From the NCBI RefSeq assembly GCF_030389965.1, contig NZ_CP128399.1, positions 806,001 through 870,000 of the forward strand: a stretch of 64,000 nt of DNA. The letters are read 5' to 3'. Made by a program: the position numbers and the translations under genes. Origin of the DNA: Candidatus Chlorohelix allophototropha (GTDB taxonomy: Bacteria > Chloroflexota > Chloroflexia > Chloroheliales > Chloroheliaceae). This document shows, piece by piece, positions 2,930 to 23,631 of the stretch. The notes beneath the pieces were generated by a model that was given only the letters and a program-made list of their open reading frames with translations, did no database searches and was not told the origin of the DNA. The stretch's first letter is position 1; every line of letters starts with the position of its first letter.

Positions 2930-4807
2930 ATGCCACAATACCTTTCCCCAGGTGTTTATGTAGAGGAGGTAGATCGCGGTAGTAAGCCTATTGAAGGTGT
3001 TGGAACTTCAATTGCCGCGTTCGTCGGCTTTGCCGAAAAAGGTCCTCGTGCAGCAACACTTGTAACCAGTTGGGAACAATACCAGCTAACCTTTGGTGGG
3101 TTTATAGCTGGCGCTTTCATGCCAGCTTCTGTTTATGGGTTTTTCCTGAACGGTGGCACACGTGCTTACATTATGCGTGTCTCTCCAGCGGTTACTATTC
3201 CTCAAAAGAGTGGTGCTGGTACTGCTTTGGAAGTTACTCCCTTACTGAGCGCGGGCGATGAGGCAGTTTCGGTGACGGTTAGCGATGGCGCTGCCGGACG
3301 CTATAAACTAACGGTACATCGCGGTGATACTACCGAAACCTTTGATGATCTTAGCAGCAATAAGAAAGATAAAGCAGGACGTTATGTTGAGGATGTAATA
3401 AACGATGCGGCAAAAGGCTCGAAATTTGTCAGAGTTCATGATGCCAGCGGTAACAGAGCCGATGCCGATGTCCGCGCTCCTAAATCAGGTTCTTATTCTT
3501 CCCCCTCATCCGGAGGCGATAATAAACCTGCTGCCGAATTACCGCCCGCCTCGGTTCGTTTGAACGCTCGAACGGGTGAGGATGTACCGGCGGTTGAATT
3601 GCGCCCTGCTCCCGGTGTTAGTGGTTCTTTGACCGTAGCGGTTGAAGAGATTGCCGGACAGGATGAATTGTTCAAATTGATTGTGAAAGCGTCTTCGGGA
3701 GAGTCAGAATCTTTTGATGTAAGTTTCAAGAAAGGTCCTCAATACCTAGAGAGTGTTATTAACGGCGGTAGAACAGGGTCAAAACTGGTACGAGTCAGGG
3801 ATCTAACGGGTGATAGCCCGACAAGCCCTGCGGACAAACGCCCTAATCCGGGACAGTCCACATTGGCAGGTGCAACTGAAACAAAGGCATTGTCCAGCAA
3901 AATTACTCTTACCTCTGCCGATTTTACCGGCGATGTGATGAGTCGTACCGGTTTGGGTGGTCTAGAAGCATTGGATGATGTTACTATTGTTATGTGCCCT
4001 GATTTGATGTCACTGTACCAAAAAGGCGTGGTGGATATGAAGGGGGTACAGGTAGTACAAACCGCGATGATGAATCATTGCGAAGCCATGAAGAATCGGG
4101 TAGCGATTCTCGATGCCCCTCCCGGAATGAATGCGCAACAAATCCGCAATTGGCGTATGCGCGAAGCCAACTATGACAGTAAATATGCGGCATTGTATTT
4201 TCCTTGGATTGAGGTGGATGATCCGGTCAATAAGGGCAAAACCACTCTCATCCCGCCGAGCGGTCATATGGCTGGAATCTGGGCGCGTAGCGATTCAGAA
4301 CGAGGTGTGCATAAAGCTCCTGCCAACGAAATTGTGCGTGGCGCTATCGGTCTTGAAATGCAGATAACAATGGGCGAGCAAGATGGCTTGAACCCTGAAG
4401 GTATTAACTGCATCCGGGCTTTCCCCGGTCGAGGTATTCGGGTTTGGGGTGCGCGTACCCTTTCCAGTGACCCAAGCTGGCGTTATCTCAATGTGCGCCG
4501 CCTGTTCAATTACGTGGAAGCTTCTATCGAACGTGGCACACAATGGGTTGTATTTGAGCCAAACGATTTCGATCTGTGGCAGCGTATTAAGCAAGATATA
4601 AACGCCTTCCTCACTACGGTGTGGTTGAATGGCGCATTGTTCGGACAAACAACCGATCAAGCCTACTTTGTCAGATGCGATGATTCGACTAACCTTCCGG
4701 CTACCATTGATTTGGGTATGGTCATTACGGAAATCGGTATTGCTCCGGTCAAGCCGGCTGAATTTGTGATCTTCCGCATTGGACAGATGACTCAAGGTGG
4801 CGCTTAA
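2930..4807 (+). CDS. contractile tail sheath protein with a duplicated inserted domain
   Basis: This 625-residue protein begins with the classic sheath N-terminus (YLSPGVYVEEVDRGSKPIEG, then TSIAAFVGFAEKGP). It ends with the conserved C-terminal domain (YLNVRRLFNYVEASIERG, then TQWVVFEPND, then TDQAYFVRCDD). These elements form the extended sheath lattice that contracts. It is longer than many eCIS sheaths because the middle carries an insertion of roughly 200 residues. Two similar beta-rich segments (about residues 98-172 and 220-293) each end in a motif like GSK-[FL]-VRV-[HR]-D. The insertion probably projects from the sheath surface. The ribosome site AAGGAGAATGAT precedes the ATG. A 9-bp hairpin follows the gene. 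Confidence 0.93.
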   Translation: MPQYLSPGVYVEEVDRGSKPIEGVGTSIAAFVGFAEKGPRAATLVTSWEQYQLTFGGFIAGAFMPASVYGFFLNGGTRAYIMRVSPAVTIPQKSGAGTALEVTPLLSAGDEAVSVTVSDGAAGRYKLTVHRGDTTETFDDLSSNKKDKAGRYVEDVINDAAKGSKFVRVHDASGNRADADVRAPKSGSYSSPSSGGDNKPAAELPPASVRLNARTGEDVPAVELRPAPGVSGSLTVAVEEIAGQDELFKLIVKASSGESESFDVSFKKGPQYLESVINGGRTGSKLVRVRDLTGDSPTSPADKRPNPGQSTLAGATETKALSSKITLTSADFTGDVMSRTGLGGLEALDDVTIVMCPDLMSLYQKGVVDMKGVQVVQTAMMNHCEAMKNRVAILDAPPGMNAQQIRNWRMREANYDSKYAALYFPWIEVDDPVNKGKTTLIPPSGHMAGIWARSDSERGVHKAPANEIVRGAIGLEMQITMGEQDGLNPEGINCIRAFPGRGIRVWGARTLSSDPSWRYLNVRRLFNYVEASIERGTQWVVFEPNDFDLWQRIKQDINAFLTTVWLNGALFGQTTDQAYFVRCDDSTNLPATIDLGMVITEIGIAPVKPAEFVIFRIGQMTQGGA

Positions 4808-4894: not shown

Positions 4895-5350
4895 ATGGCT
4901 GAAAAACATTCATCAGAACTGATAGGCGCCAGTAGTTTCTATCTGGATTTAAGGTCGGGTCCCCAGATTTCACTCAAAGAAGTTTCCGGGTTAGAAAGTG
5001 AAACTGAAGTGCGCGAACTTATGCAATCGACTAAAGACGGTAAGGTGATAATTATAAAATCACAAGGCGCTACCCCAGTAAAGCCCGGAAAGCTTACCAT
5101 TAAATATGCGGCTTATAAGGGTGACCCCGTTTTAGATTGGCGGCAACTGGTAGTGAATGGCAAAATGGAGGAGGCCCGACGCGACATCCATATTGTCATT
5201 TATGGAGTGGACAATAAAGAAATCATGCGTTTTACCTGCAAAAACTCTTGGCCCTCCAAATATGCTTGGTCTAACCTGAGCGCCAAGAGTAACGAAGCGC
5301 TCGAAATTACAGTAACCATTGATCACGAAGGACTGGAAATCGCCAAGTAA
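4895..5350 (+). CDS. inner tube protein 1 (gp19/Hcp-like)
   Basis: This 151-residue protein has the small beta-barrel tube pattern: a start SSFYLDLRSGPQISLKEVSG, a central block PGKLTIKYAAYKGDPVLDW, and an end YAWSNLSAKSNEALEITVTI then DHEGLEI. Stacked rings of this family form the rigid tube that the contracting sheath drives forward. It follows the sheath gene, as in other contractile systems, and has a strong ribosome site (CAGGAGGC). A second tube-family gene lies at 6012-6503. In such systems the first is usually the major tube subunit and the second the tube-baseplate initiator. That division of labour is inferred. Confidence 0.9.
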   Translation: MAEKHSSELIGASSFYLDLRSGPQISLKEVSGLESETEVRELMQSTKDGKVIIIKSQGATPVKPGKLTIKYAAYKGDPVLDWRQLVVNGKMEEARRDIHIVIYGVDNKEIMRFTCKNSWPSKYAWSNLSAKSNEALEITVTIDHEGLEIAK

Positions 5351-5425: not shown

Positions 5426-5824
5426 ATGGCTGGCTTGCAGACCGAATTTGATTTCGAGTTGCCCAAGGGTTTTATTGATACAACCGGTACTCTACACCGC
5501 AAGGGGAAAATGCGGCTTGCTACTGCGATGGATGAAATTATACCGTTGCGTGACCCGCGTGTGCGAAATAATCAGGCTTATCTTTCAATAATACTACTGT
5601 CCAAAGTTGTAACTCGTCTCGGAACCCTTGAAACAAGTGATATTAATACCGGGGTTATGGAAAGATTGTTTTCAGCAGACCTCGCTTACCTGCAAGCTTT
5701 ATATAATCGGATTAATTCGCCCACCTATGATGGCAAAACTTGCCCTACCTGTAATAGACCCTATTATGAAGATGAGGGTGAAAGTAGCGAGGAGGTGGGC
5801 CGTGAAGCAGTAGTGGGGGGATAG
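5426..5824 (+). CDS. phage tail assembly chaperone-like protein
   Basis: This 132-residue protein sits between the two tube genes, where contractile phages and eCIS encode a small tail assembly chaperone. Its N-terminus (FDFELPKGFIDTTGTLHRKG) and the middle PLRDPRVRNNQAYLSIILLS match the T4-like tail-assembly family I recognise in eCIS loci. A CPTCNRPYYEDE segment (about residues 107-118) holds a single CxxC, half of a zinc knuckle. The last codons, GTG GGG GGA TAG, contain a slippery heptamer, and the following ORF continues in the -1 frame. The gene may therefore make both this 132-residue form and a 189-residue extended form. Confidence 0.75.
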   Translation: MAGLQTEFDFELPKGFIDTTGTLHRKGKMRLATAMDEIIPLRDPRVRNNQAYLSIILLSKVVTRLGTLETSDINTGVMERLFSADLAYLQALYNRINSPTYDGKTCPTCNRPYYEDEGESSEEVGREAVVGG

Positions 5825-5861
5825 TTTGCTACCCCTCGGAGCAACTTTACGAGGAGGTAGC
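5815..5861 (+). promoter_or_regulatory. candidate programmed -1 ribosomal frameshift signal
   Basis: The zero-frame codons GGG GGA preceded by G make the heptamer G-GGG-GGA (5815-5821), of the form X-XXY-YYZ. After a 6-base spacer (5822-5827, starting with the zero-frame stop TAG) comes a stem-loop. GCTACCCCTC (5828-5837) pairs with GAGG (5851-5854) and GGTAGC (5856-5861); one A is bulged and the loop has 13 bases. The geometry matches known -1 frameshift sites, including those in phage tail assembly chaperone genes (lambda G/GT). The -1 frame leads straight into a conserved-looking ORF. The alternative is a sequencing indel in the G run. Confidence 0.7.
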
Positions 5862-5994
5862 ATATATCGCTTACTACTTTCACTGGAGCGCGGATGAAAT
5901 CATGGCTTTGGAGCATGCAGAGCGTCGTCGTTGGGTTGAGCAAATTAGCTGGATTAATGATAGGCTCAACGGTCCGGTTGAGCATTCTATATAA
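5821..5994 (+). CDS. DUF6760-like small eCIS protein, reachable by -1 frameshift
   Basis: In the frame -1 to the chaperone-like gene, codons 5821-5991 encode 57 residues before the TAA at 5992. They include YPSEQLYEEVAYIAYYFHW, then SADEIMALEHAERRRWVEQI, the compact pattern of the DUF6760 family found beside tube genes in eCIS loci. Its function is unknown. From the preceding in-frame stop (5803-5805) up to an internal ATG at 5902 there is no ATG, GTG, TTG or CTG. The ATG at 5902 would discard the first half of the motif. Translation most likely enters by frameshifting at 5815-5821. The stop is followed 8 bases later by the AAGGAAG ribosome site of the next gene. Confidence 0.65.
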   Translation: MVCYPSEQLYEEVAYIAYYFHWSADEIMALEHAERRRWVEQISWINDRLNGPVEHSI

Positions 5995-6011: not shown

Positions 6012-6503
6012 ATGACAATAAACGCAAGTATATCGGCGAGCATCTCAACCGGGCCTGCTTCACGCAAAGACCCCTTATTGCCGAGCAAGTTCTGGATTGA
6101 AATTAATGGAGTAATGGAAGCCTTTTTCACCGAATGTAGCGGGCTTTCTATCCAAACTGAAGTGATGGAATACAAGGAAGGCGGGCTTAATTCGCGTACC
6201 CATAAACTTCCGGTGCGTTCTACTTTCTCGAATATTACTCTGAAAAAGGGTATGACCACTTCCAGCCTGATTTACCAGTGGTATATGAAAACTGTTCAAG
6301 GTAAACCCGAAACCCATGATTTTAGCATTATTGTCTATTCAAGCAGTTCTCCCGGCAAGCCTGTTAAACGTTGGAATGTAAGCAAAGCCTATCCCATAAA
6401 ATGGAGCAGTTCGGAATTTAAGGCAAGTGATGGGCAGGGTCATTTGGTTGAAACCATTGAACTGGTGCATAACGGTTTTGTAGAAGTACCGCAATCAATT
6501 TAA
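6012..6503 (+). CDS. tube protein 2 (gp19-like, tube initiator)
   Basis: This 163-residue phage T4 gp19-like protein has the landmarks DPLLPSKFWIEINGVMEAFF, ECSGLSIQTEVMEYKEGG, FSNITLKKG and FKASDGQGHLVETIELVHNG. Family knowledge: eCIS loci encode two or three tube paralogues. Those with this fuller gp19 pattern usually form the ring joining the tube to the baseplate spike. A good AAGGAAG site lies just upstream of the ATG. The next gene starts three bases after its stop codon, suggesting translational coupling. Confidence 0.9.
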   Translation: MTINASISASISTGPASRKDPLLPSKFWIEINGVMEAFFTECSGLSIQTEVMEYKEGGLNSRTHKLPVRSTFSNITLKKGMTTSSLIYQWYMKTVQGKPETHDFSIIVYSSSSPGKPVKRWNVSKAYPIKWSSSEFKASDGQGHLVETIELVHNGFVEVPQSI

Positions 6504-6506
6504 ATT

Positions 6507-9500
6507 ATGGCAGAAAATGAAGAGTTAAAACCGAATATTACTGCCGGACAGGATGCAAACAAGAACATCAAGCCTGTTAGTTCTCCTGCCTTTGCTTCTA
6601 ACGCCTCATTTTCGATTGCGCGACGCTTCGGCTATTATGATGCCTTATCCTCGCGCTGGTTAAATATCCCCCCCACTGCTCGTATGGGAAATTCTATCGT
6701 AGCGCGTTATAGCGTTTTTCCGCTTCCGTTTGATGCGCTTGGACGTGGTTTGCTGAGTGTGCGGCAGCGAAAAACTGCACCTCTCGCGCAAGTGCAACGC
6801 AACGTGAGCAATTTATCACCAGCTAAACCTACTTCTTACAATCTAGCGGAGGCTCAGCCGGAATATGAGTTTGAAGAGTTCGGCTATGAGAATGTTCAAT
6901 CGGATTTTGACGATACAATAATAGCTAGTGATCCAGAGCCGAGGCAAAATTCAATCAGTTCAGCTTCATCCATTGCCCGTATCCGGGAATTTCAAACACC
7001 GGTACAGCGCAGCCTTGAAGGTTTGGCGCGTAGCCGTGACTGGCGCGGTATGGCAGGGCAAGATGCGTCTGAACTTGAGGGAGCGGTATTCAACTCATCC
7101 GATTCATACTACCTGGATATGGTTCAGGCTTCACGTTCCGGTACACCAGTGCAAGAGGAATCTTTCGTCAGCCCTTCTACTTCATTTAGTGATTCAGGCT
7201 TTAGAACAAGCAGTTTGCCAATACAGCCTATTTTGGTTAGCTCTGCCACTTCTTCACTGCAAAGGTTCGTTGCGCCCGAAACATCGGTTTCTTCTACAGA
7301 ATCGCGCCCAACCGAAGTACCCTCGCCTGCTACTCCAATTCAGAAGCCGACCCATACGGAAAATGAATCGTTATCAGGCTACTCTGAGCCTTTGCCTACC
7401 TCACCGAATCAAGAATCAGGTAGTAGCACTCCAATTATAGCTAGCGGTGAAACGGCTGTTCCTTCCATTCAGGTTGCTCAAGGTGTTTCTGAAATAACCC
7501 AAACCTCTGCGCTTCAAAATATAGTTTCCAGCCCTTCCGAGACGGGCGGTCAATTGAACTCGCGTGTAAGTTCTGAGTCGCTTGCAAGGGCTTATACAAA
7601 TGAGGAACGACCGAGCTATTCCTCGGAATCTACCTTAGCGCCTATGGTCTTTCCGCGAGCGCGCCGGGTTAATCCTGCCACTCACCAGAATTCTTTATCC
7701 AGCCCAAAAGTAATGCGCCAGCTTTCTGAACTGGCTGCCAGCCGTGAGTGGGGCAATACACTGGAATTCGGTGAAGCGCAAGGAATTCCCCCAATTATTG
7801 AGGGTGGCGCTTATACTCCGCCCGAAATGGTACAACGCAATGCTTCTTCTCCTACACAAACGACTCAGGCAGACTCTACGGCAGCCACATCTATTAATCG
7901 CAGCCTTGCCTCCGGTTCGGATTCTAACATTACTAGCGCAACTAACCGACTTACCACTAATCCAGTAACAAGTACCGAATATTCGCAAAATCCTATCTTA
8001 CAAACTAATCTGGGTATTTCATCAAGTCTTGATTCTAAACAAGAGAGTGCCACTACTTCAGCCTTTCAACCGCAACCTAGTCAAATCTCCCGCTCAATAG
8101 AAAACAATAATTTAACCCAGAACGATAATGCTGTTAGTAGAGTAAGTGCCAGTATTTCAAGCCAATTACCAGAAAACTTTCCTGAAGCGAAAGAACTAGA
8201 AGCTATAAAGGAAGTGGCGCAAGAACCTGAAACGACTACCGCCACTTTGACTACAGCATTGCAGGGACAAAGCGCAATAGCCCGCGCAATTCAGAGAGCG
8301 GAAGAGGTTGTTGCAGATGAAGAAAATGATGTTGATAGGTCATATCCCCAATCGGTATCGACAATCGAATCTCCACCGATGGTCTTTCGCAGCCTAGCTA
8401 CGGGAAATCCGCTCACTGTCACAAGCAATGAAAATGGAGAAAGTATTGCGCCTGAAAACCGATTAACGACAAAGGCGCAATCTAATATTTCCGATAACCG
8501 CGCTCCTGCATTGAATGAATTTGAAGAGAGCAATGCCTATGCTCAATCGCCCTCTACCTTGCCTGTTGGAGCGCAGGCTATTAGGCGATTCACCGAAGAG
8601 CGTGCCAATATAGCCGCTTGGGCTGAAAACCTACCGCAAACTATTAATGCCGGATTTGAAACTCCTTCACAGTCTGTAGCTGAAACCTACGGCGCTTCTC
8701 CATCTATAAACCGCGTGTTTGCCGCGCAGGATAAAACTGGGAACGTTATTGACGAAAATGCTACTGCTGTGACTTCAATGAAAAATAATCCTTCTGAAGT
8801 GGCACACACTGTTATGCCAGTGCAAGGTTTAATGTCTTCAACAAACTCGATTCAACGTATTGCTGACCTTGCATCTAACCGCGAGTGGGGAAATGCGTTT
8901 GATTTTGAAGGCTTTAATATTGCCGACTCTCGCCAATCAACCAAATCGCCGGATATGGTTTATCCTACTATTACGCCGAACTTGGCAACTTCCTCTGTTC
9001 AACGTACCGTTGCTGCGACTGTTGCTCCTTCTTCAAACATAGTTGGCAACCCTTTAGTCGCTTCAACTCTTAGGGAATCTGGCATATCGCCAATAGGTAG
9101 TTCAACTACCCCTGCGACTTATCCAACGCCTTCTGGTCAACATTTTGAATCAATTGCGCCAGATCAGGGATTCTTCGGCACTTCCATTTCACGCGCAATT
9201 GAGCGTGCCAAGCAACCAAACCAAGATACTGTTGTAGAGAAAAGCACCTCTGATTTAACTTTCACTACTCCAACTTTCCAACCGATTAGAGAATCTGGAA
9301 TACCTCACACGGTTGGTTCAACTATCCCTGTGACTACCCACACGCCCCCTGGTGTATCCGCTATATCAGGATTGGAATTTTCCCAGACTTCAATTTCGCG
9401 TGCAATGGAACGCACTGCTCAGGCAGACGAATGGGTTGCTGCTACTATAGGCACACCTGATTTAAATTTTAGCATACCACCTCTGATAATGCGTAAAGTG

Positions 9501-10427
9501 GGCGATTTTACACCCACTAGGCAAGACTTTACTACTAACGATAGACCAGATTTTGCAGAATCGGTGCAAGCTTATACCCCCGGTGCATTACCGATAGCCT
9601 TGTCATTTGAAGTGGCTTCTTCCGCCAATGCAAGTTCCTCAATAATGCGCAGCCTACCTGAGACTGATTCCAGCTATGATATAGGGCAGGTTTATCTTAC
9701 TGATATAGCGAGTACTAAAGACATACCGCAACAAACGCTGTTTGAGAACAGGTCTAGAGCGGACGTGCCTTCTTCTACCAATATGTCCCATCTATCCAGT
9801 GTTCAGCCACCAACCTCTCAGACAAGCACTTCTGTTGGTGAAGGACGAAAGGTTCAACCAGAATCGTTGCAGATTGGGAGTGGTTTTACTAATGGTTCAG
9901 GTTTATTCCGTTCAACTTTACTTCCGGCTTCCTCGTCAATAGATAACACCTCTCAGCCTGCCGGAATAGAGCGAATGATAATGCGCCACTTGAATGTGGC
10001 TGCCACTTCAACCGAGTCGGCTTCCGCTGAGGAAGATGTACTAAACTATCCTGCTCGCAATGTTGTTGATCAACACGCTGATATTGAACGTACCGTATTG
10101 CGTCATATCTCGCTCGCTAATGCCTCACAAGCTAGCGGTACACACAGCGAATGGGCTTACCCTTCTAGTGAGCCGGTACATCTGCGTCCAGAACCCGTTA
10201 TGCGCGGTGCTGAAACAGCGGTGGTTTCCTCTGGTATCCAGAGGTTTACGGATGGAATCTCTTCTGAAAGTAACTTCAGCCAGAATTCATCTCAGTTAAG
10301 TGGAAATTCACAGCCACAAGCGGAAGTGGATATTGAAAAAATTACGACAGAAGTGTATCGCAAATTGAAACGCGACATGCAAATTGAACGCGAACGCTTG
10401 GGTTTGAGAAGCGGTTTAATGAGATAG
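6507..10427 (+). CDS. 1306-residue Ser/Thr-rich repeat protein of the eCIS locus
   Basis: I recognise no catalytic domain. The N-terminus (about residues 30-80) looks folded and ends in YSVFPLPFDALGRGLLSVRQ. A very long Ser/Thr/Pro/Gln-rich low-complexity stretch follows, and the protein closes in a charged helix (DIEKITTEVYRKLKRDMQIE, then RERLGL). Family knowledge from memory: variable proteins with a similar closing helix sit just before the LysM gene in related eCIS loci. The disordered part holds roughly 20 spaced copies of a short [SV]-[IVL]-x-R motif, e.g. SIARIREF, SLQRFV, SINRSL, SISRAIERA, SISRAMERT, GIERMIMRH, DIERTVLRH. A longer form, LA-S-RxW, occurs three times (near nt 7020, 7735 and 8870). 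There is no strong ribosome site, so it is probably coupled to the previous gene. The role is unknown; an assembly scaffold or lumen protein is possible. Confidence 0.7.
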   Translation: MAENEELKPNITAGQDANKNIKPVSSPAFASNASFSIARRFGYYDALSSRWLNIPPTARMGNSIVARYSVFPLPFDALGRGLLSVRQRKTAPLAQVQRNVSNLSPAKPTSYNLAEAQPEYEFEEFGYENVQSDFDDTIIASDPEPRQNSISSASSIARIREFQTPVQRSLEGLARSRDWRGMAGQDASELEGAVFNSSDSYYLDMVQASRSGTPVQEESFVSPSTSFSDSGFRTSSLPIQPILVSSATSSLQRFVAPETSVSSTESRPTEVPSPATPIQKPTHTENESLSGYSEPLPTSPNQESGSSTPIIASGETAVPSIQVAQGVSEITQTSALQNIVSSPSETGGQLNSRVSSESLARAYTNEERPSYSSESTLAPMVFPRARRVNPATHQNSLSSPKVMRQLSELAASREWGNTLEFGEAQGIPPIIEGGAYTPPEMVQRNASSPTQTTQADSTAATSINRSLASGSDSNITSATNRLTTNPVTSTEYSQNPILQTNLGISSSLDSKQESATTSAFQPQPSQISRSIENNNLTQNDNAVSRVSASISSQLPENFPEAKELEAIKEVAQEPETTTATLTTALQGQSAIARAIQRAEEVVADEENDVDRSYPQSVSTIESPPMVFRSLATGNPLTVTSNENGESIAPENRLTTKAQSNISDNRAPALNEFEESNAYAQSPSTLPVGAQAIRRFTEERANIAAWAENLPQTINAGFETPSQSVAETYGASPSINRVFAAQDKTGNVIDENATAVTSMKNNPSEVAHTVMPVQGLMSSTNSIQRIADLASNREWGNAFDFEGFNIADSRQSTKSPDMVYPTITPNLATSSVQRTVAATVAPSSNIVGNPLVASTLRESGISPIGSSTTPATYPTPSGQHFESIAPDQGFFGTSISRAIERAKQPNQDTVVEKSTSDLTFTTPTFQPIRESGIPHTVGSTIPVTTHTPPGVSAISGLEFSQTSISRAMERTAQADEWVAATIGTPDLNFSIPPLIMRKVGDFTPTRQDFTTNDRPDFAESVQAYTPGALPIALSFEVASSANASSSIMRSLPETDSSYDIGQVYLTDIASTKDIPQQTLFENRSRADVPSSTNMSHLSSVQPPTSQTSTSVGEGRKVQPESLQIGSGFTNGSGLFRSTLLPASSSIDNTSQPAGIERMIMRHLNVAATSTESASAEEDVLNYPARNVVDQHADIERTVLRHISLANASQASGTHSEWAYPSSEPVHLRPEPVMRGAETAVVSSGIQRFTDGISSESNFSQNSSQLSGNSQPQAEVDIEKITTEVYRKLKRDMQIERERLGLRSGLMR

Positions 10428-18300: not shown

Positions 18301-21300
18301 TTGGCAGATGCAGGCAATCTGGATCTTGAATTGCATATAAAACCGGTGGATACCGGCTACCAATCCGAATTGAAGACGGCGGACGGCTCGGCTATACTCA
18401 ATAGTTTTCGCTTGTCCTATGCCCCGCATGAAATAGAAAACCTCATCACCTATTTACGCCAAGCGCAACAATACGGCAATGGCTTACAGAGTCCAGAAAT
18501 GCAGGTTATCCAGCAATTCGGCTGGAGTCTTTTTAATCAGGTATTCAGCAATCAGATGGAAGGTGCGCTGCGTGAAAATTTAATTCAGGCGCGGCGTGAA
18601 GACCACAAAATTCGTCTAAGGCTGGCGCTTGACCCGGAAGATTCTTTACTTAACCAACTTCCGTGGGAATATTTATATTACCCAAGCGCTAATAGCTATT
18701 TGAATCTTGCAGGCAACCTTATTTTTTCACGTTCCACCGGGAACGGGCTTCACTACGAATACGCAAAAATCAGTTTACCGCTGAAAGTGTTGGTTTGCGC
18801 CGATTCCTCTGCCTATTGTGTAGAAATCGAAGAAGCAGTCAAAGAGCAGCATTATCAAGGATTGCTACAAGTCATTTCAGCCCCAGATGTGGCGGCTATT
18901 ACGAATGTCCTTGCGAAAGATGAATTTCATCTAATCTGGTTGAAATGCAACTTTGCAGCTAAGTTATCGGATAGTTCCCAAAGTTTTTCTATCTCCGAAT
19001 CTAGCCGCTGGCTTTCAATTTGTCCGAAATTGCGCATCCTAATTCTTGAAAAAAATACTAATGAACTCACCGAGATGAACACGCTTGGTAATTCGCTGGT
19101 ACATGAAGGATGGGGCGGTTGTGTACTGATACCCTTCGACTTAAATTCAGAAGGGCGTGAAATTGTAGCGCGTGAGCTGTTGAGCGGATTGGCGCAGGGC
19201 TTGGGCTTGGATGAGGCGGTAGCGCGTACTCGTGAACAACTCTTTAATAGCGGGCATGAAGCGGATTGGGGCGATTTGCTGGCTTTCAGCGCACATCCTG
19301 CCGGGAAAATGTTCCAGATTGAAAGCCAGAATCCCGAAGATATGCGCAAACGGCAATTATCTACTCTGTCGCGGGATGCCAAATTATCATTGGATCAGGA
19401 GAAATGGGCGCAGGCGGAGGAATTGCTGGTGCAATTACTGCAACTTGAACCAGACCGCCCGGAACTAAAGAAGTTGCTTGACTATGCCAGACGTAATCAG
19501 GCGTTGGATGAGCAATACCAGTATGCTAAAACTCTGCTACAAGAAGAACGCTGGTTGGATGCTCTGGAAGAATTTCACAAAATTAAAGCGCAGGATTCCC
19601 GCAATCGTTTCAAGGATTTGCAATCTCTAATAGCAGAGGCTGAGTCGAAGGTACAAGATAGTCAGAAAATAGAAGAAGCAAACAGCCTTTATTCTTCCGC
19701 ACAGATGGCGATAATGCTAAAAGATTGGACTCTCGCCATAGAGCGTCTTGAACGGGCGTTGCGCTTGTATCCGGCATTAGAAGAAGCCGAGAACCTTTTA
19801 AAGCAAGTCAGGTTGCAGCAACAATTGCTGGAACTTTATAGCGTAGGGCGCGATTGCTTTGAAGCTGAACGCTGGCATGAAGCGCTGGAACGTCTTTACA
19901 AGCTAAGGGAACTAGATAGCGGGATGCTCTATGGCGATATTCATAAAATGATCGCCGAAGCCGAAGCCAAAGAGTCGCAGGAGCAAAAAAAAGCCCAAAT
20001 AATTGAGCTTGAGGCTGAATCACAACACTATTTTGAGCAACAGCGCTGGAATGAGGGTATTAGCTGTCTTGAACAATTATTGCAATTAAAGCCTGACCAC
20101 CCGAACGCTTCTGAAAAAATCTCTTTTGCCAAAGTTCAGTTAACATTGGCTGATCTCTTTGCAAAGGGCAATACGGCATTAGCTCAAGAACAATGGATGG
20201 AGGCAATAGAGTTCTTTAGCCAGCTACGTTCGCTGGATGGGCTGAGCCAATATCCGCAAGCAGCATTGTTGGTAGCTGAAACTGAGCTAAAGATAGATAA
20301 AGCACAAAAACGCACCCGTACTGCTACTATGCTGGAAGAGGCCCAGGCGGCATTATCGAAAGAAGCTTGGGCAACTGCTATACGCAAACTTGAGGTGGCG
20401 TTAACTCTCGAACCCGCTAACTCCGAAGCCTCGGAAAAACTTGAGTACGCCCGCAATCAGCAAACGCTTAGCGCTCTGTACCAGAAAGGGCGCGAGCACT
20501 ACGAAGCCAAACGCTGGGATGAAGCGCTAGAGTTATTTGGCAAGTTGCAAACGCTTGATAAGTTGGCGCAATACAGCGATGTCGAAACTCTTATTTCAAC
20601 TGCCGCCGCACAGCGCAGCGATTCGCAGCTTGAAGCGATGTACGCAGGGGTACAGATTGCGCTTGAAAAGCAAGAGTGGGCGGCGGCTCATCAAAAGCTC
20701 GAATCAATTTTTGCAATTAATCCCGGCTTCAAAGATACCGCTGAATTGCTGAGCAAAGTTCGCCAAAGAGTAACCGAGAACCTTTCGCAAAATGCCGCCG
20801 CGTTTTTAAGCGAAACTGTAAAGAGCGATAGCGGTGAGTATGGCTATCAAATTGACTTAAAATTGACTACTTCTCTGGCAGGTTATCAACTAGAGATGAC
20901 TACCAGCGAAGGCAATCGGTATCTTGGCAACTTTTCCCTGACCTATAACGCCCAGCAATTGGACAATTTGCTGTGGTATTTGCGGCAGGCGCGTTATATT
21001 GATGCCGGGTTTGATAGCCCTGAAATGCGGGCGGTTCAAAAATTTGGTTGGAATCTCTTTATCGAACTGTTCAACAATGAGATGGAAACTGCCTTACGCA
21101 ATATTCTGGTACAAGGCGAGCGTGAGGGAAAATTTACCACTATAAGGCTGTTGCTCGGTAGCGATTCCACCTTAAATATCTTACCGTGGGAATATTTGTA
21201 CTATCCCTATGCCAACAGTTATTTAGGGCTGGCAGGTGATATTTCGCTGGTTAGGTTGGTAGAAACCGAAAAAGAACCTGTTCCGGCGCAAGTGCGTGGT

Positions 21301-23631
21301 GCTGTGCGGGTTTTGAGTTGGGTAGGAACACCAGAAGGCTATGAAAAAATAGACTCTGAAGAGTATAGGCAAATGCTGGCTGAGTCGGCGGGCGAATACC
21401 GACAACGGGGTTTGGTAAGTCTAGAGAGAGTCAAGGGTGCGACATTTTCGGCATTGCAAAAACAACTTTGGGTGGGCGAATACCATATTTTATGGATTGT
21501 CGCTCCGGTAGAAAGAGGCGAACTGAGAGTTAATGGTGAAGACGGTGAACCAGAAAGCTTGAGTGCCCTAAAGCTCTGGAATCTGCTAAAGGAACATCCC
21601 GGTATCCGCTTAGTAGTTTTTGAAACTTCGGTGGGAGATGGTTCAACCGGAATTAATACTATCGCACAAGCCTTGGTTGAACAAGGATTAGCTGGATGTG
21701 TGGCATTGCCTTTTGAAATTTCTGAAAAGAATCGCGCAGTGTTCTCGCGTGAAATTCTGGGCGGAATAAGTCAGGGCAAAAGCATAAATAGTGTGTTGGC
21801 ACAAGCTCGCTTTGCCATATACGAGAATAAAAATCAAGTCGAATGGGGTACACCCATTTTATACACACAGCGACGCGATGGCATTCTATTCAATATACTT
21901 TCAACCCCCCCTGACGAGCAGCGCGTGAAGCAGCTTGAAGCTCTAGAAAATGAAGCGGACGCTGCTATTGAACGTGAAGAATGGGTTAGAGCAATTGACC
22001 GCCTTCAAAAACTGCTAGAACTTGACCCCTCTAGAGAGGAAGCTGCCCAAAAACTACGCAACCTTGAATTTCAGCAGGAACAAGCTCGGCTTTACGCCGA
22101 AGGGCGCGAATATTTTGACTCTGGTAACTGGGGGGAAGCGCTACGGGTATTTCGCACTTTAAAAGAAAACGATAGCGAAGGGCATTATCTAATAGTCGAG
22201 TGGCTCATAACAGATTCGCAACACAAACTAGAAGAACAGATATATGAAGAACACCTGTCACAGCTTTATACCGATGCCGTCTCAGCTTTTGAAACCGAAG
22301 AGTGGGATGCAGCTGTAAATGGGCTTGAAATAATTGCCAATAAAGAGCCGGAGTATCGCGAGGTAGAACAATTATTGGCGCAAGCTCGTCAGAAGTTAAA
22401 GGAAGCTCAGGAACGAGTTCCGCGACTTTATGAAGAAGCGCGTCAAGCTCTAAAAGAAAAAAACTGGGTGTCGGCGATTCAAAAGCTGGTAGATGTATTG
22501 GCAGCCGAACCGGATCATCCCACTGCACAACAATTGCTGGATAAAGTGCGCTATTACCAAATTTTGGAGGCACTTAAATTTACCCTGAAAATGCATATAG
22601 AATCCAAAAAATGGGATGAGGCTGCAATTACGCTAGAGTTATTGCGCAAACGCGATAAAAAAGGGGAATTTACCGATATTATCAGTAGCGCGAAGGTGGT
22701 CATCACCGAAGTTAGCACTAAGATAAACAATCTTATGGGTGTAGCCAGAGTTGCGATCGAAGAGCAAGAGTGGGATAAAGCTGTTGAAAAATTAACTGCC
22801 GTCCTTGAACTTTCCCCTGAACATCCCGAAGCCAATGTATCTTTACCGCGTGTCCAACTCAGCCAAAGCTTGCAATCGGTGTATCAAGCCGCTCGTGAAC
22901 ATTATGCCACAGCCGCATGGCATGAAGCTTTGGATGGTTTTCGTCAAGTTAAGATGATGGATAGAGGCGGCTTATATACCGATCTCGATTGGTATATTAC
23001 CGATACACAAGCGCGTATGGAGGAGTCCAACCGCCAATCGCAGTTTGTGGCAATGGAACAGGAAGCCCAACTTGCGCTTGACCGAGGTGAATGGGCAATT
23101 GCGCTACAAAAATTGGAAAATCTATTAACTATATTTCCTTACCATCCTGAGACTCAGAATAAGCTGACTTACGTTAAACAGCAATTGGAACTTGAGCAAC
23201 TTTACATAACCGGGAATGATCATTTGCAAGCAGGGCGCTGGCAAGAAGCTTCCGAGACACTGCGTCGATTGCAAGCCTTTGATATGTATGGGCGTTACCC
23301 GCAGGTAGGTGGAATGATTGCTTTTGCCGAGAGTAATTATACCCCTCAGATTCAACCGATTACCAGTAGTTTTCCTTTAGTTAGTGCTGCACCAGCACAA
23401 CCCCGTGATAAGAAAGCTCAAACCTCACAGAAAAACGCTAATGGTAGCCAAGCAACCGAAAAAAATAAAAACAAGGGGACAAAAAGCACTGCAAAAACCG
23501 AGGTCGCTAAAAAACCGCGCATCCCTGATTCTACCGTTTCTTTCAGAGTCAGGCTCTTGTTTTTCTTCTGGGGGCTAATACCGATAGCTTTGCTTGTATT
23601 ACTGATAATAAACTTGTTGCGACGGTCTTGA
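18301..23631 (+). CDS. giant double CHAT-like/TPR protein with C-terminal membrane anchor
   Basis: The 1776-residue protein has two CHAT-like modules (about residues 10-345 and 840-1203), each followed by an array of about 85-residue helical repeats of TPR type (about 350-830 and 1206-1680). A polar linker and one membrane helix (RVRLLFFFWGLIPIALLVLL) ending in LRRS complete it. Both modules keep the CHAT scaffold (PWEYLYYP, GWGGCVLIPF / GLAGCVALPF) but lack the active site. The HG of the His motif is replaced (HLIWLKCN, HILWIVAP), and the catalytic Cys position reads LEKNT or FETSV. It is therefore probably a binding scaffold rather than a protease. The start is TTG 18301 behind TAGGAGTTT. 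Position and orientation make it the last gene of the eCIS operon. Confidence 0.82.
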   Translation: MADAGNLDLELHIKPVDTGYQSELKTADGSAILNSFRLSYAPHEIENLITYLRQAQQYGNGLQSPEMQVIQQFGWSLFNQVFSNQMEGALRENLIQARREDHKIRLRLALDPEDSLLNQLPWEYLYYPSANSYLNLAGNLIFSRSTGNGLHYEYAKISLPLKVLVCADSSAYCVEIEEAVKEQHYQGLLQVISAPDVAAITNVLAKDEFHLIWLKCNFAAKLSDSSQSFSISESSRWLSICPKLRILILEKNTNELTEMNTLGNSLVHEGWGGCVLIPFDLNSEGREIVARELLSGLAQGLGLDEAVARTREQLFNSGHEADWGDLLAFSAHPAGKMFQIESQNPEDMRKRQLSTLSRDAKLSLDQEKWAQAEELLVQLLQLEPDRPELKKLLDYARRNQALDEQYQYAKTLLQEERWLDALEEFHKIKAQDSRNRFKDLQSLIAEAESKVQDSQKIEEANSLYSSAQMAIMLKDWTLAIERLERALRLYPALEEAENLLKQVRLQQQLLELYSVGRDCFEAERWHEALERLYKLRELDSGMLYGDIHKMIAEAEAKESQEQKKAQIIELEAESQHYFEQQRWNEGISCLEQLLQLKPDHPNASEKISFAKVQLTLADLFAKGNTALAQEQWMEAIEFFSQLRSLDGLSQYPQAALLVAETELKIDKAQKRTRTATMLEEAQAALSKEAWATAIRKLEVALTLEPANSEASEKLEYARNQQTLSALYQKGREHYEAKRWDEALELFGKLQTLDKLAQYSDVETLISTAAAQRSDSQLEAMYAGVQIALEKQEWAAAHQKLESIFAINPGFKDTAELLSKVRQRVTENLSQNAAAFLSETVKSDSGEYGYQIDLKLTTSLAGYQLEMTTSEGNRYLGNFSLTYNAQQLDNLLWYLRQARYIDAGFDSPEMRAVQKFGWNLFIELFNNEMETALRNILVQGEREGKFTTIRLLLGSDSTLNILPWEYLYYPYANSYLGLAGDISLVRLVETEKEPVPAQVRGAVRVLSWVGTPEGYEKIDSEEYRQMLAESAGEYRQRGLVSLERVKGATFSALQKQLWVGEYHILWIVAPVERGELRVNGEDGEPESLSALKLWNLLKEHPGIRLVVFETSVGDGSTGINTIAQALVEQGLAGCVALPFEISEKNRAVFSREILGGISQGKSINSVLAQARFAIYENKNQVEWGTPILYTQRRDGILFNILSTPPDEQRVKQLEALENEADAAIEREEWVRAIDRLQKLLELDPSREEAAQKLRNLEFQQEQARLYAEGREYFDSGNWGEALRVFRTLKENDSEGHYLIVEWLITDSQHKLEEQIYEEHLSQLYTDAVSAFETEEWDAAVNGLEIIANKEPEYREVEQLLAQARQKLKEAQERVPRLYEEARQALKEKNWVSAIQKLVDVLAAEPDHPTAQQLLDKVRYYQILEALKFTLKMHIESKKWDEAAITLELLRKRDKKGEFTDIISSAKVVITEVSTKINNLMGVARVAIEEQEWDKAVEKLTAVLELSPEHPEANVSLPRVQLSQSLQSVYQAAREHYATAAWHEALDGFRQVKMMDRGGLYTDLDWYITDTQARMEESNRQSQFVAMEQEAQLALDRGEWAIALQKLENLLTIFPYHPETQNKLTYVKQQLELEQLYITGNDHLQAGRWQEASETLRRLQAFDMYGRYPQVGGMIAFAESNYTPQIQPITSSFPLVSAAPAQPRDKKAQTSQKNANGSQATEKNKNKGTKSTAKTEVAKKPRIPDSTVSFRVRLLFFFWGLIPIALLVLLIINLLRRS

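Follow-up and report, generated by a model that had tools for sequence, protein, structure and literature searches.

A very probable programmed -1 frameshift joins a tail assembly chaperone-like gene to the DUF6760 domain in eCIS operons of bacteria and archaea

The analysed window is a stretch of 64,000 nucleotides from Candidatus Chlorohelix allophototropha (contig NZ_CP128399.1, positions 806,001 to 870,000), and its gene content identifies the Chloroflexota locus as a full eCIS operon. Genes for an AAA ATPase, eCIS_core (DUF4157), Pvc16_N, sheath, tube and second tube proteins are accompanied by genes for CIS_tube-LysM, a GPD/Phage_base_V hub, PAAR, gp25, Baseplate_J and a P2-I-like protein. 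The eCIS setting of the original prediction is borne out by the sheath, tube, CIS_tube/LysM, hub/spike, gp25, baseplate J, Pvc16_N, eCIS_core and AAA ATPase genes. The genome holds one sheath gene and one DUF6760. The gene studied here follows the sheath and tube genes and precedes a second tube gene, beyond which lies an unclassified ORF of 1306 aa; across loci, a tube gene is found upstream in 163 of 170 and a sheath gene in 151 of 170. The features of the locus are as follows.

2930 to 4807, forward strand: contractile sheath protein (PF04984, E=1.5e-25; PF17482, E=4e-18)
4895 to 5350, forward strand: tube protein (Phage_T4_gp19), the upstream neighbour (PF06841, E=2.6e-19)
5426 to 5824, forward strand: upstream gene in the zero frame, 132 aa, tail-assembly-chaperone-like, with a C-terminal CPxC motif and ending in EAVVGG-stop
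5815 to 5821, forward strand: slippery heptamer G_GGG_GGA (GGGGGGA), in the zero frame the last base of GTG, then GGG and GGA
5821 to 5994, forward strand: -1 frame extension, DUF6760 domain, 57 codons (IVCYPSEQ...EHSI), with TAA at 5992-5994
5822 to 5824, forward strand: zero-frame stop codon TAG, immediately 3' of the heptamer
5822 to 5827, forward strand: 6-nt spacer between heptamer and stem, overlapping the stop codon
5828 to 5861, forward strand: predicted stimulatory hairpin, GCTACCCCTCG (5828-5838) opposite CGAGGAGGTAGC (5850-5861), with an 11-nt loop and one bulged A
6012 to 6503, forward strand: second tube protein (gp19), the downstream neighbour (PF06841, E=1.5e-36)

Three other proteins of the window deserve mention. 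The 1306-aa ORF (6507-10427) is rich in Ser, Thr, Pro and Gln, has no Pfam match and lies between the second tube and CIS_tube-LysM genes; standing at the usual tape-measure site, it is possibly a tape-measure or cargo protein. The eCIS_core (DUF4157) protein (1141-1956) carries the C-terminal tandem repeat VQREA(E/D)DEELQMKRDEA. Directly 3' of the eCIS baseplate genes, positions 18301-23631 encode a protein of 1776 aa with many TPR repeats, whose duplicated regions look CHAT-like by eye and have no Pfam match.

The protein encoded in the zero frame resembles tail assembly chaperones, as judged by weak sequence matches and a middling fold match. It matches phrog_508 'tail assembly chaperone' with an E-value of 8e-5. 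Among its relatives, PF10109 (Phage_TAC_7) is matched in 5 of 43 (best 5.6e-5, under the curated cut-off), and a few match Gp41_Mu. Plasmid rows were left out of the alignment of the upstream protein. The predicted fold (mean pLDDT 79) has as its top matches YqbN (Z 6.9), which we take to be kin of tail assembly chaperones, and the HK97 tail assembly chaperone 2ob9 (Z 6.5, VIA), both middling. Foldseek of the predicted fold against the PDB gave no significant match, hhalign against P2 E alone gave no match, and PDB sequence searches with the upstream-protein and DUF6760 profiles returned nothing meaningful.

The -1 frame begins at ATA (5821), and its first ATG, GTG or TTG is the internal ATG of ...DEIMALEH, in the middle of the domain. 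Its product is a member of DUF6760 (PF20546; E=2.4e-18, 66.4 bits against a curated cut-off of 27). Annotation treats this family as a separate protein, with forced ATA, ATT or CTG starts or truncated ones: public records start it at ATA in Nostoc, ATT in Pseudanabaena, CTG in Streptomyces cadmiisoli and a truncated TTG in Rhodococcus. The annotated starts of loci L127, L128, L131 and L136 (ATA, a truncating TTG, CTG and ATT) are consistent with a gene without a start of its own. Recoding would explain these unusual or truncated starts given by annotation pipelines.

The junction of the two frames (5815-5861) reads GGGGGGA TAG TTT GCTACCCCTCG GAGCAACTTTA CGAGGAGGTAGC. The upstream ORF ends in GTG GGG GGA TAG, with the heptamer phased for a -1 slip (X_XXY_YYZ). 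The hairpin comprises 11-12 bp and has a predicted energy of -20.4 kcal/mol (z -5.0), a stability equalled by none of 200 dinucleotide shuffles. Bare G6 runs are unremarkable in the window (15 found, 24 expected), and the evidence therefore lies in the combined pattern and its conservation. The composite pattern G5-N8-GCTACCC-N16-GAGGAGGTAGC has a single occurrence in the window, and in 100 shuffles it has none with up to three mismatches allowed. A search of Rfam with the junction matched no family. A Shine-Dalgarno-like sequence, GAGGTGGA, lies about 14 nt upstream; we do not claim it as a stimulator, because no constraint is seen at the synonymous third positions within it. The original prediction had read the junction as a programmed -1 frameshift signal. 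The heptamer it placed in the last zero-frame codons, the 6-base spacer, the 57 open codons of a DUF6760-like ORF with no usable start before its middle, and the fusion length of 132+57=189 aa all stand; so does the bulged A of its stem, while the 10 bp it allowed for that stem proved slightly short.

Relatives of the locus were collected in several ways. PF20546 was present in 8 of 61 near genomes and in 37 of 400 genomes of the phylum, 35 of these 37 also containing Pvc16_N. A peptide-pattern scan of GTDB species genomes yielded 443 loci, of which 80 were kept, together with 11 viral contigs. Profile searches without DNA or peptide-pattern bias added 46 loci from Cyanobacteriota, Actinomycetota and the archaeal phylum of Methanoperedens, and plasmid records a further 10. 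Once duplicates had been removed, the main set numbered 162 unique loci whose upstream ORF spans 80 codons or more. The loci, most of which come from MAGs so that single lineage labels may be wrong, represent Chloroflexota, Cyanobacteriota, Actinomycetota, Desulfobacterota-type bacteria, Nitrospirota, Omnitrophota, Gemmatimonadota, Planctomycetota, Acidobacteriota, Armatimonadota (Chthonomonadales), Bacillota, Pseudomonadota, KSB1 and WOR-3, and among archaea Methanosarcina, Methanoperedens, ANME-1 and Haloferax.

Relative to the upstream ORF, DUF6760 occupies the -1 frame in every one of these 162 loci, which cover more than a dozen bacterial phyla as well as archaea. This conservation refutes what the original prediction had named as the main alternative, a sequencing indel in the G run or a decayed gene, in which case adding or removing a single base of the G6 run would give one continuous frame. 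Homopolymer runs are error-prone, and a Methanosarcina MAG (L081) does have a run with one base fewer (G4) and an interrupted upstream frame, which may be an assembly error or a real mutation. The same -1 relation recurs, however, in many assemblies, finished replicons included, and the probability left to an indel is negligible.

An in-frame slippery site, mostly G_GGG_GRN, is kept in 156 of the 162 loci. Of these sites 150 fall within the scanned range, and six belong to loci with a G5 or G6 site at -15 and a zero-frame stop just beyond the stem (L018, L042, L062, L086, L091 and L155); the count includes L124 and L173, whose sites are weak (CCC_GGG_G and, farther away, GGG_GGG_C) and which both possess starts of their own. 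The alignment suggested by the original prediction thus gave the opposite of the outcome that would have told against it, namely relatives in which DUF6760 has its own start and no slippery sequence. Among the first 112 unique loci, G5 occupies the identical place in 104, and the main offset is constant. The common heptamers are G_GGG_GAA, G_GGG_GAG, G_GGG_GGA and G_GGG_GGG, and in five loci (L090, L103, L127, L133 and L134) the site is found one codon further upstream. Separate lineages have replaced it by other recognised -1 heptamers: G_GGA_AAY (G_GGA_AAT/C) in haloarchaeal loci (L179-L183 and L132), lambda's G_GGA_AAG in the viral contig pair L125/L126, and T_TTT_TTA in a locus of Peptococcaceae, Bacillota (L084). 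Swaps of sequence that keep the codon phase are a requirement of frameshifting, and no rival explanation predicts them. The contigs L125 and L126, which come from IMG/VR, carry a distant DUF6760 after a sheath/tube pair, and may represent a virus or a fragment of an archaeal or bacterial CIS.

The replaced sites also bear on RNA polymerase slippage on the G run, a transcriptional realignment that would yield mixed mRNAs encoding the fusion. The runs of G5-G8 at the junction would suit it, but most are only G5, the haloarchaeal, L125 and L084 sites differ in sequence while keeping the codon phase, and neither G_GGA_AAY nor G_GGA_AAG is a long homopolymer. A hairpin 6 nt downstream and under synonymous selection, as described below, fits a ribosome, and we regard transcriptional slippage as very unlikely.

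No ATG, GTG or TTG is present anywhere in the open -1 frame of 78 loci with a slip site. In the first 112 loci, 89 lack such a codon within 10 codons upstream of the domain and 61 have none anywhere in the open frame; loci that do possess a near start end the zero frame with TGA in 23 of 23 cases, as expected if ATGA and GTGA overlaps create these starts. An ATGA or GTGA start arises in TGA-stop clades, some members of which could use ordinary coupling instead of slipping or beside it. An overlapping start is present in each of the six loci that lack a slip site (L012 and five members of the Actinomycetota sample), compared with 45 of 156 loci with a slip site (Fisher p=8e-4). Since every locus without the site has such a start, some actinobacterial eCIS seem, by sequence, to have given up the frameshift in favour of overlapping genes. 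Six actinobacterial eCIS loci (L172-L175, L177 and L178) have an overlapping ATGA or GTGA start and no hairpin; the frameshift seems to have been replaced there.

These starts are the ground for supposing that DUF6760 is a separate protein made by termination-reinitiation, at an overlapping ATGA or GTGA or, in the window, at a non-AUG codon such as ATA, with the G run and stem aiding reinitiation. Streptomyces and some other clades have a GTG or ATG overlapping the TGA stop, NCBI annotates ATA, ATT or CTG starts for other loci, and an overlapping start is all that the six loci without a slip site possess. Reinitiation nevertheless meets the 78 slip-site loci lacking any of the three start codons, and the majority stops are TAG and TAA, which create no start. 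It has no need of the in-frame phase of the heptamer or of swaps to G_GGA_AAY or T_TTT_TTA, and the precedents of P2 and lambda are fusions. We consider it improbable.

In bacteria and archaea alike, the stem is conserved at synonymous sites. The hairpin was tested by folding each sequence, by counting pairs and by a synonymous-codon null in which codons were redrawn from each locus's own usage. In the stem, Tyr is encoded by TAC in 109 of 111 loci, Val by GTA in 89 of 103 and Glu by GAG in 104 of 105 and 110 of 112, and the Gly codon preceding Val is GGC in 50 of 50; elsewhere in the same genes TAC accounts for 54% of Tyr, GTA for 11% of Val and GAG for 60% of Glu codons. About half of the stability is lost upon synonymous redrawing, the mean hairpin energy being -19.5 kcal/mol as observed and -9.3 kcal/mol as redrawn. 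The mean z under this null is -3.66, with p<=0.05 in 93% of loci, against -0.11 and 7% for a control stretch of the same gene. Dehalococcoidia- and Actinomycetota-type loci have in its place a different stem, TACGCGACC/GGTCGCGTA, in a shifted register. No significant hairpin was found in L012, L124 and L125, which are without a G5 site. Covariation between columns is modest because the stem columns hardly vary; the three pairs with double changes (such as G-C for C-G in columns 29-42) are not the main evidence.

Strong nucleotide conservation of this kind would also be expected if the G run and hairpin served some other function as a conserved element of the RNA or DNA, such as mRNA processing or attenuation between parts of the operon, and lay at the frame junction by chance. 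The lack of an Rfam family agrees with such an element. It would, however, leave unexplained how the heptamer is phased to the codons, why a start is missing, the phase-keeping replacement of slip sites and the homology to P2 E/E', and a role of this sort is extremely unlikely.

That homology emerges from profile comparison, by which DUF6760 is homologous to E', the frameshift extension of phage P2, and is likely the eCIS version of it. E' of P2 matches PF06528 at 1.8e-22 and E matches PF10109; the hhalign profile alignment of DUF6760 with E' has a probability of 81 and an E-value of 1e-5. PF06528 is matched by 17 of 45 DUF6760 members, with a best value of 5.8e-4, the window's own match falling below the curated cut-off. 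A search of named phage genomes for DUF6760 found no match. The P2 record itself annotates E+E' as a -1 frameshift product. In P2 (gpE/gpE+E', PF10109 + PF06528) as in the eCIS, a short gene after sheath and tube has near its end a -1 frameshift that adds a small domain, and the two extensions have in common the motif F/YP...FHW...W. P2 differs in slipping on T_TTT_TTG, and its gpE is shorter than the eCIS upstream protein, which has the CPxC motif and only weak similarity to gpE; the eCIS pair sits between two tube genes, and its DNA signal is strongly conserved across phyla.

The original prediction had cited lambda-type chaperone genes as precedent. A -1 frameshift in a chaperone gene holds as the parallel, but the closest known case is P2 E/E+E', which agrees in both halves and in their order, and not lambda G/GT. 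Lambda gpG/gpGT is likewise a tail assembly chaperone with a -1 frameshift, its heptamer G_GGA_AAG occurs in L125 and the related G_GGA_AAY in haloarchaea, and the HK97 chaperone fold is a top match of the eCIS upstream protein; on the other hand, the lambda tail is long and non-contractile, and the homology observed for DUF6760 is with P2 E', not with lambda's T domain. The ratio and role of gpG and gpGT have been summarised, and both are absent from mature virions (PMC5009743). Actinophage chaperone genes have the same slippery sequence at the same functional position: GGGGGAA is a recurrent slip motif there ('fivetwo', PRFect), for which G:U re-pairing was proposed (PMC10885494), and it has been predicted in corynephage phi16 (PMC5506516). 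Those genes are viral, whereas the eCIS studied here are cellular and combine the site with a DUF6760 extension and a fixed hairpin. Because the upstream protein resembles chaperones and DUF6760 is homologous to P2 E', the eCIS pair is very probably a recoded chaperone of the P2 E/E+E' type that these machines have retained.

The 156 slip sites, the 78 start-less loci among them and the stem held at synonymous sites support the frameshift interpretation of the original prediction. We infer that the chaperone gene very probably makes a 132-aa form and, through a programmed -1 frameshift, a minor 189-aa fusion with DUF6760. Most ribosomes would stop at TAG and release the 132-aa chaperone. In ribosomes held by the hairpin, the tRNAs would re-pair from GGG GGA to GGG GGG and shift back by one base, after which the DUF6760 frame would be read into the minor fusion. 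Slipping is disfavoured by one property of the commonest heptamer, G_GGG_GAR, in which A-site re-pairing is possible only via a G:U pair. If lambda gpG/gpGT and P2 gpE/E+E' are a guide, the chaperone may coat a tape-measure-like or cargo protein and the fused DUF6760 domain may bring in subunits of the tube or baseplate; the two would work together at a set ratio and then depart from the completed particle. As a speculation, the CPxC motif, conserved in the chaperone, and two His residues conserved in DUF6760 could together make up a single metal site. The likely role is thus the one assigned in phages, in which a tape-measure-like or cargo protein and tube subunits would be joined in a set ratio.

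A literature search for eCIS with frameshifting or tail assembly chaperones found no earlier report, with subscription journals thinly covered and absence not amounting to proof; under similarly incomplete coverage, no paper naming DUF6760 was found. This agrees with the original prediction, to which no description of a frameshift in an eCIS was known. A mechanism of this kind is known from phages; what appears to be new is its setting in a cellular injection machine of two domains of life, together with the conserved RNA element and the identity of DUF6760. The frameshift adds a conserved cellular, non-viral candidate recoding site in bacteria and archaea.

How assembly sets cargo and length is poorly known for eCIS, which are under development as protein-delivery devices. 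The chaperone and DUF6760 point to an assembly factor that is expected to be absent from purified particles. The effector of the Streptomyces CIS is a tape-measure relative (PMC11126660; PMC13277306), and the frameshift may therefore, by analogy, bear on effector loading. A broader proposal, which we advance tentatively and with more doubt than confidence, is that the -1 frameshift has been kept in bacteria and archaea since before DUF6760-type eCIS diversified and is needed for assembly of the machine, that the ratio of chaperone to fusion would set both the loading of tape-measure-related effectors and the particle length, and that DUF6760 would exist in most lineages only as a fusion.
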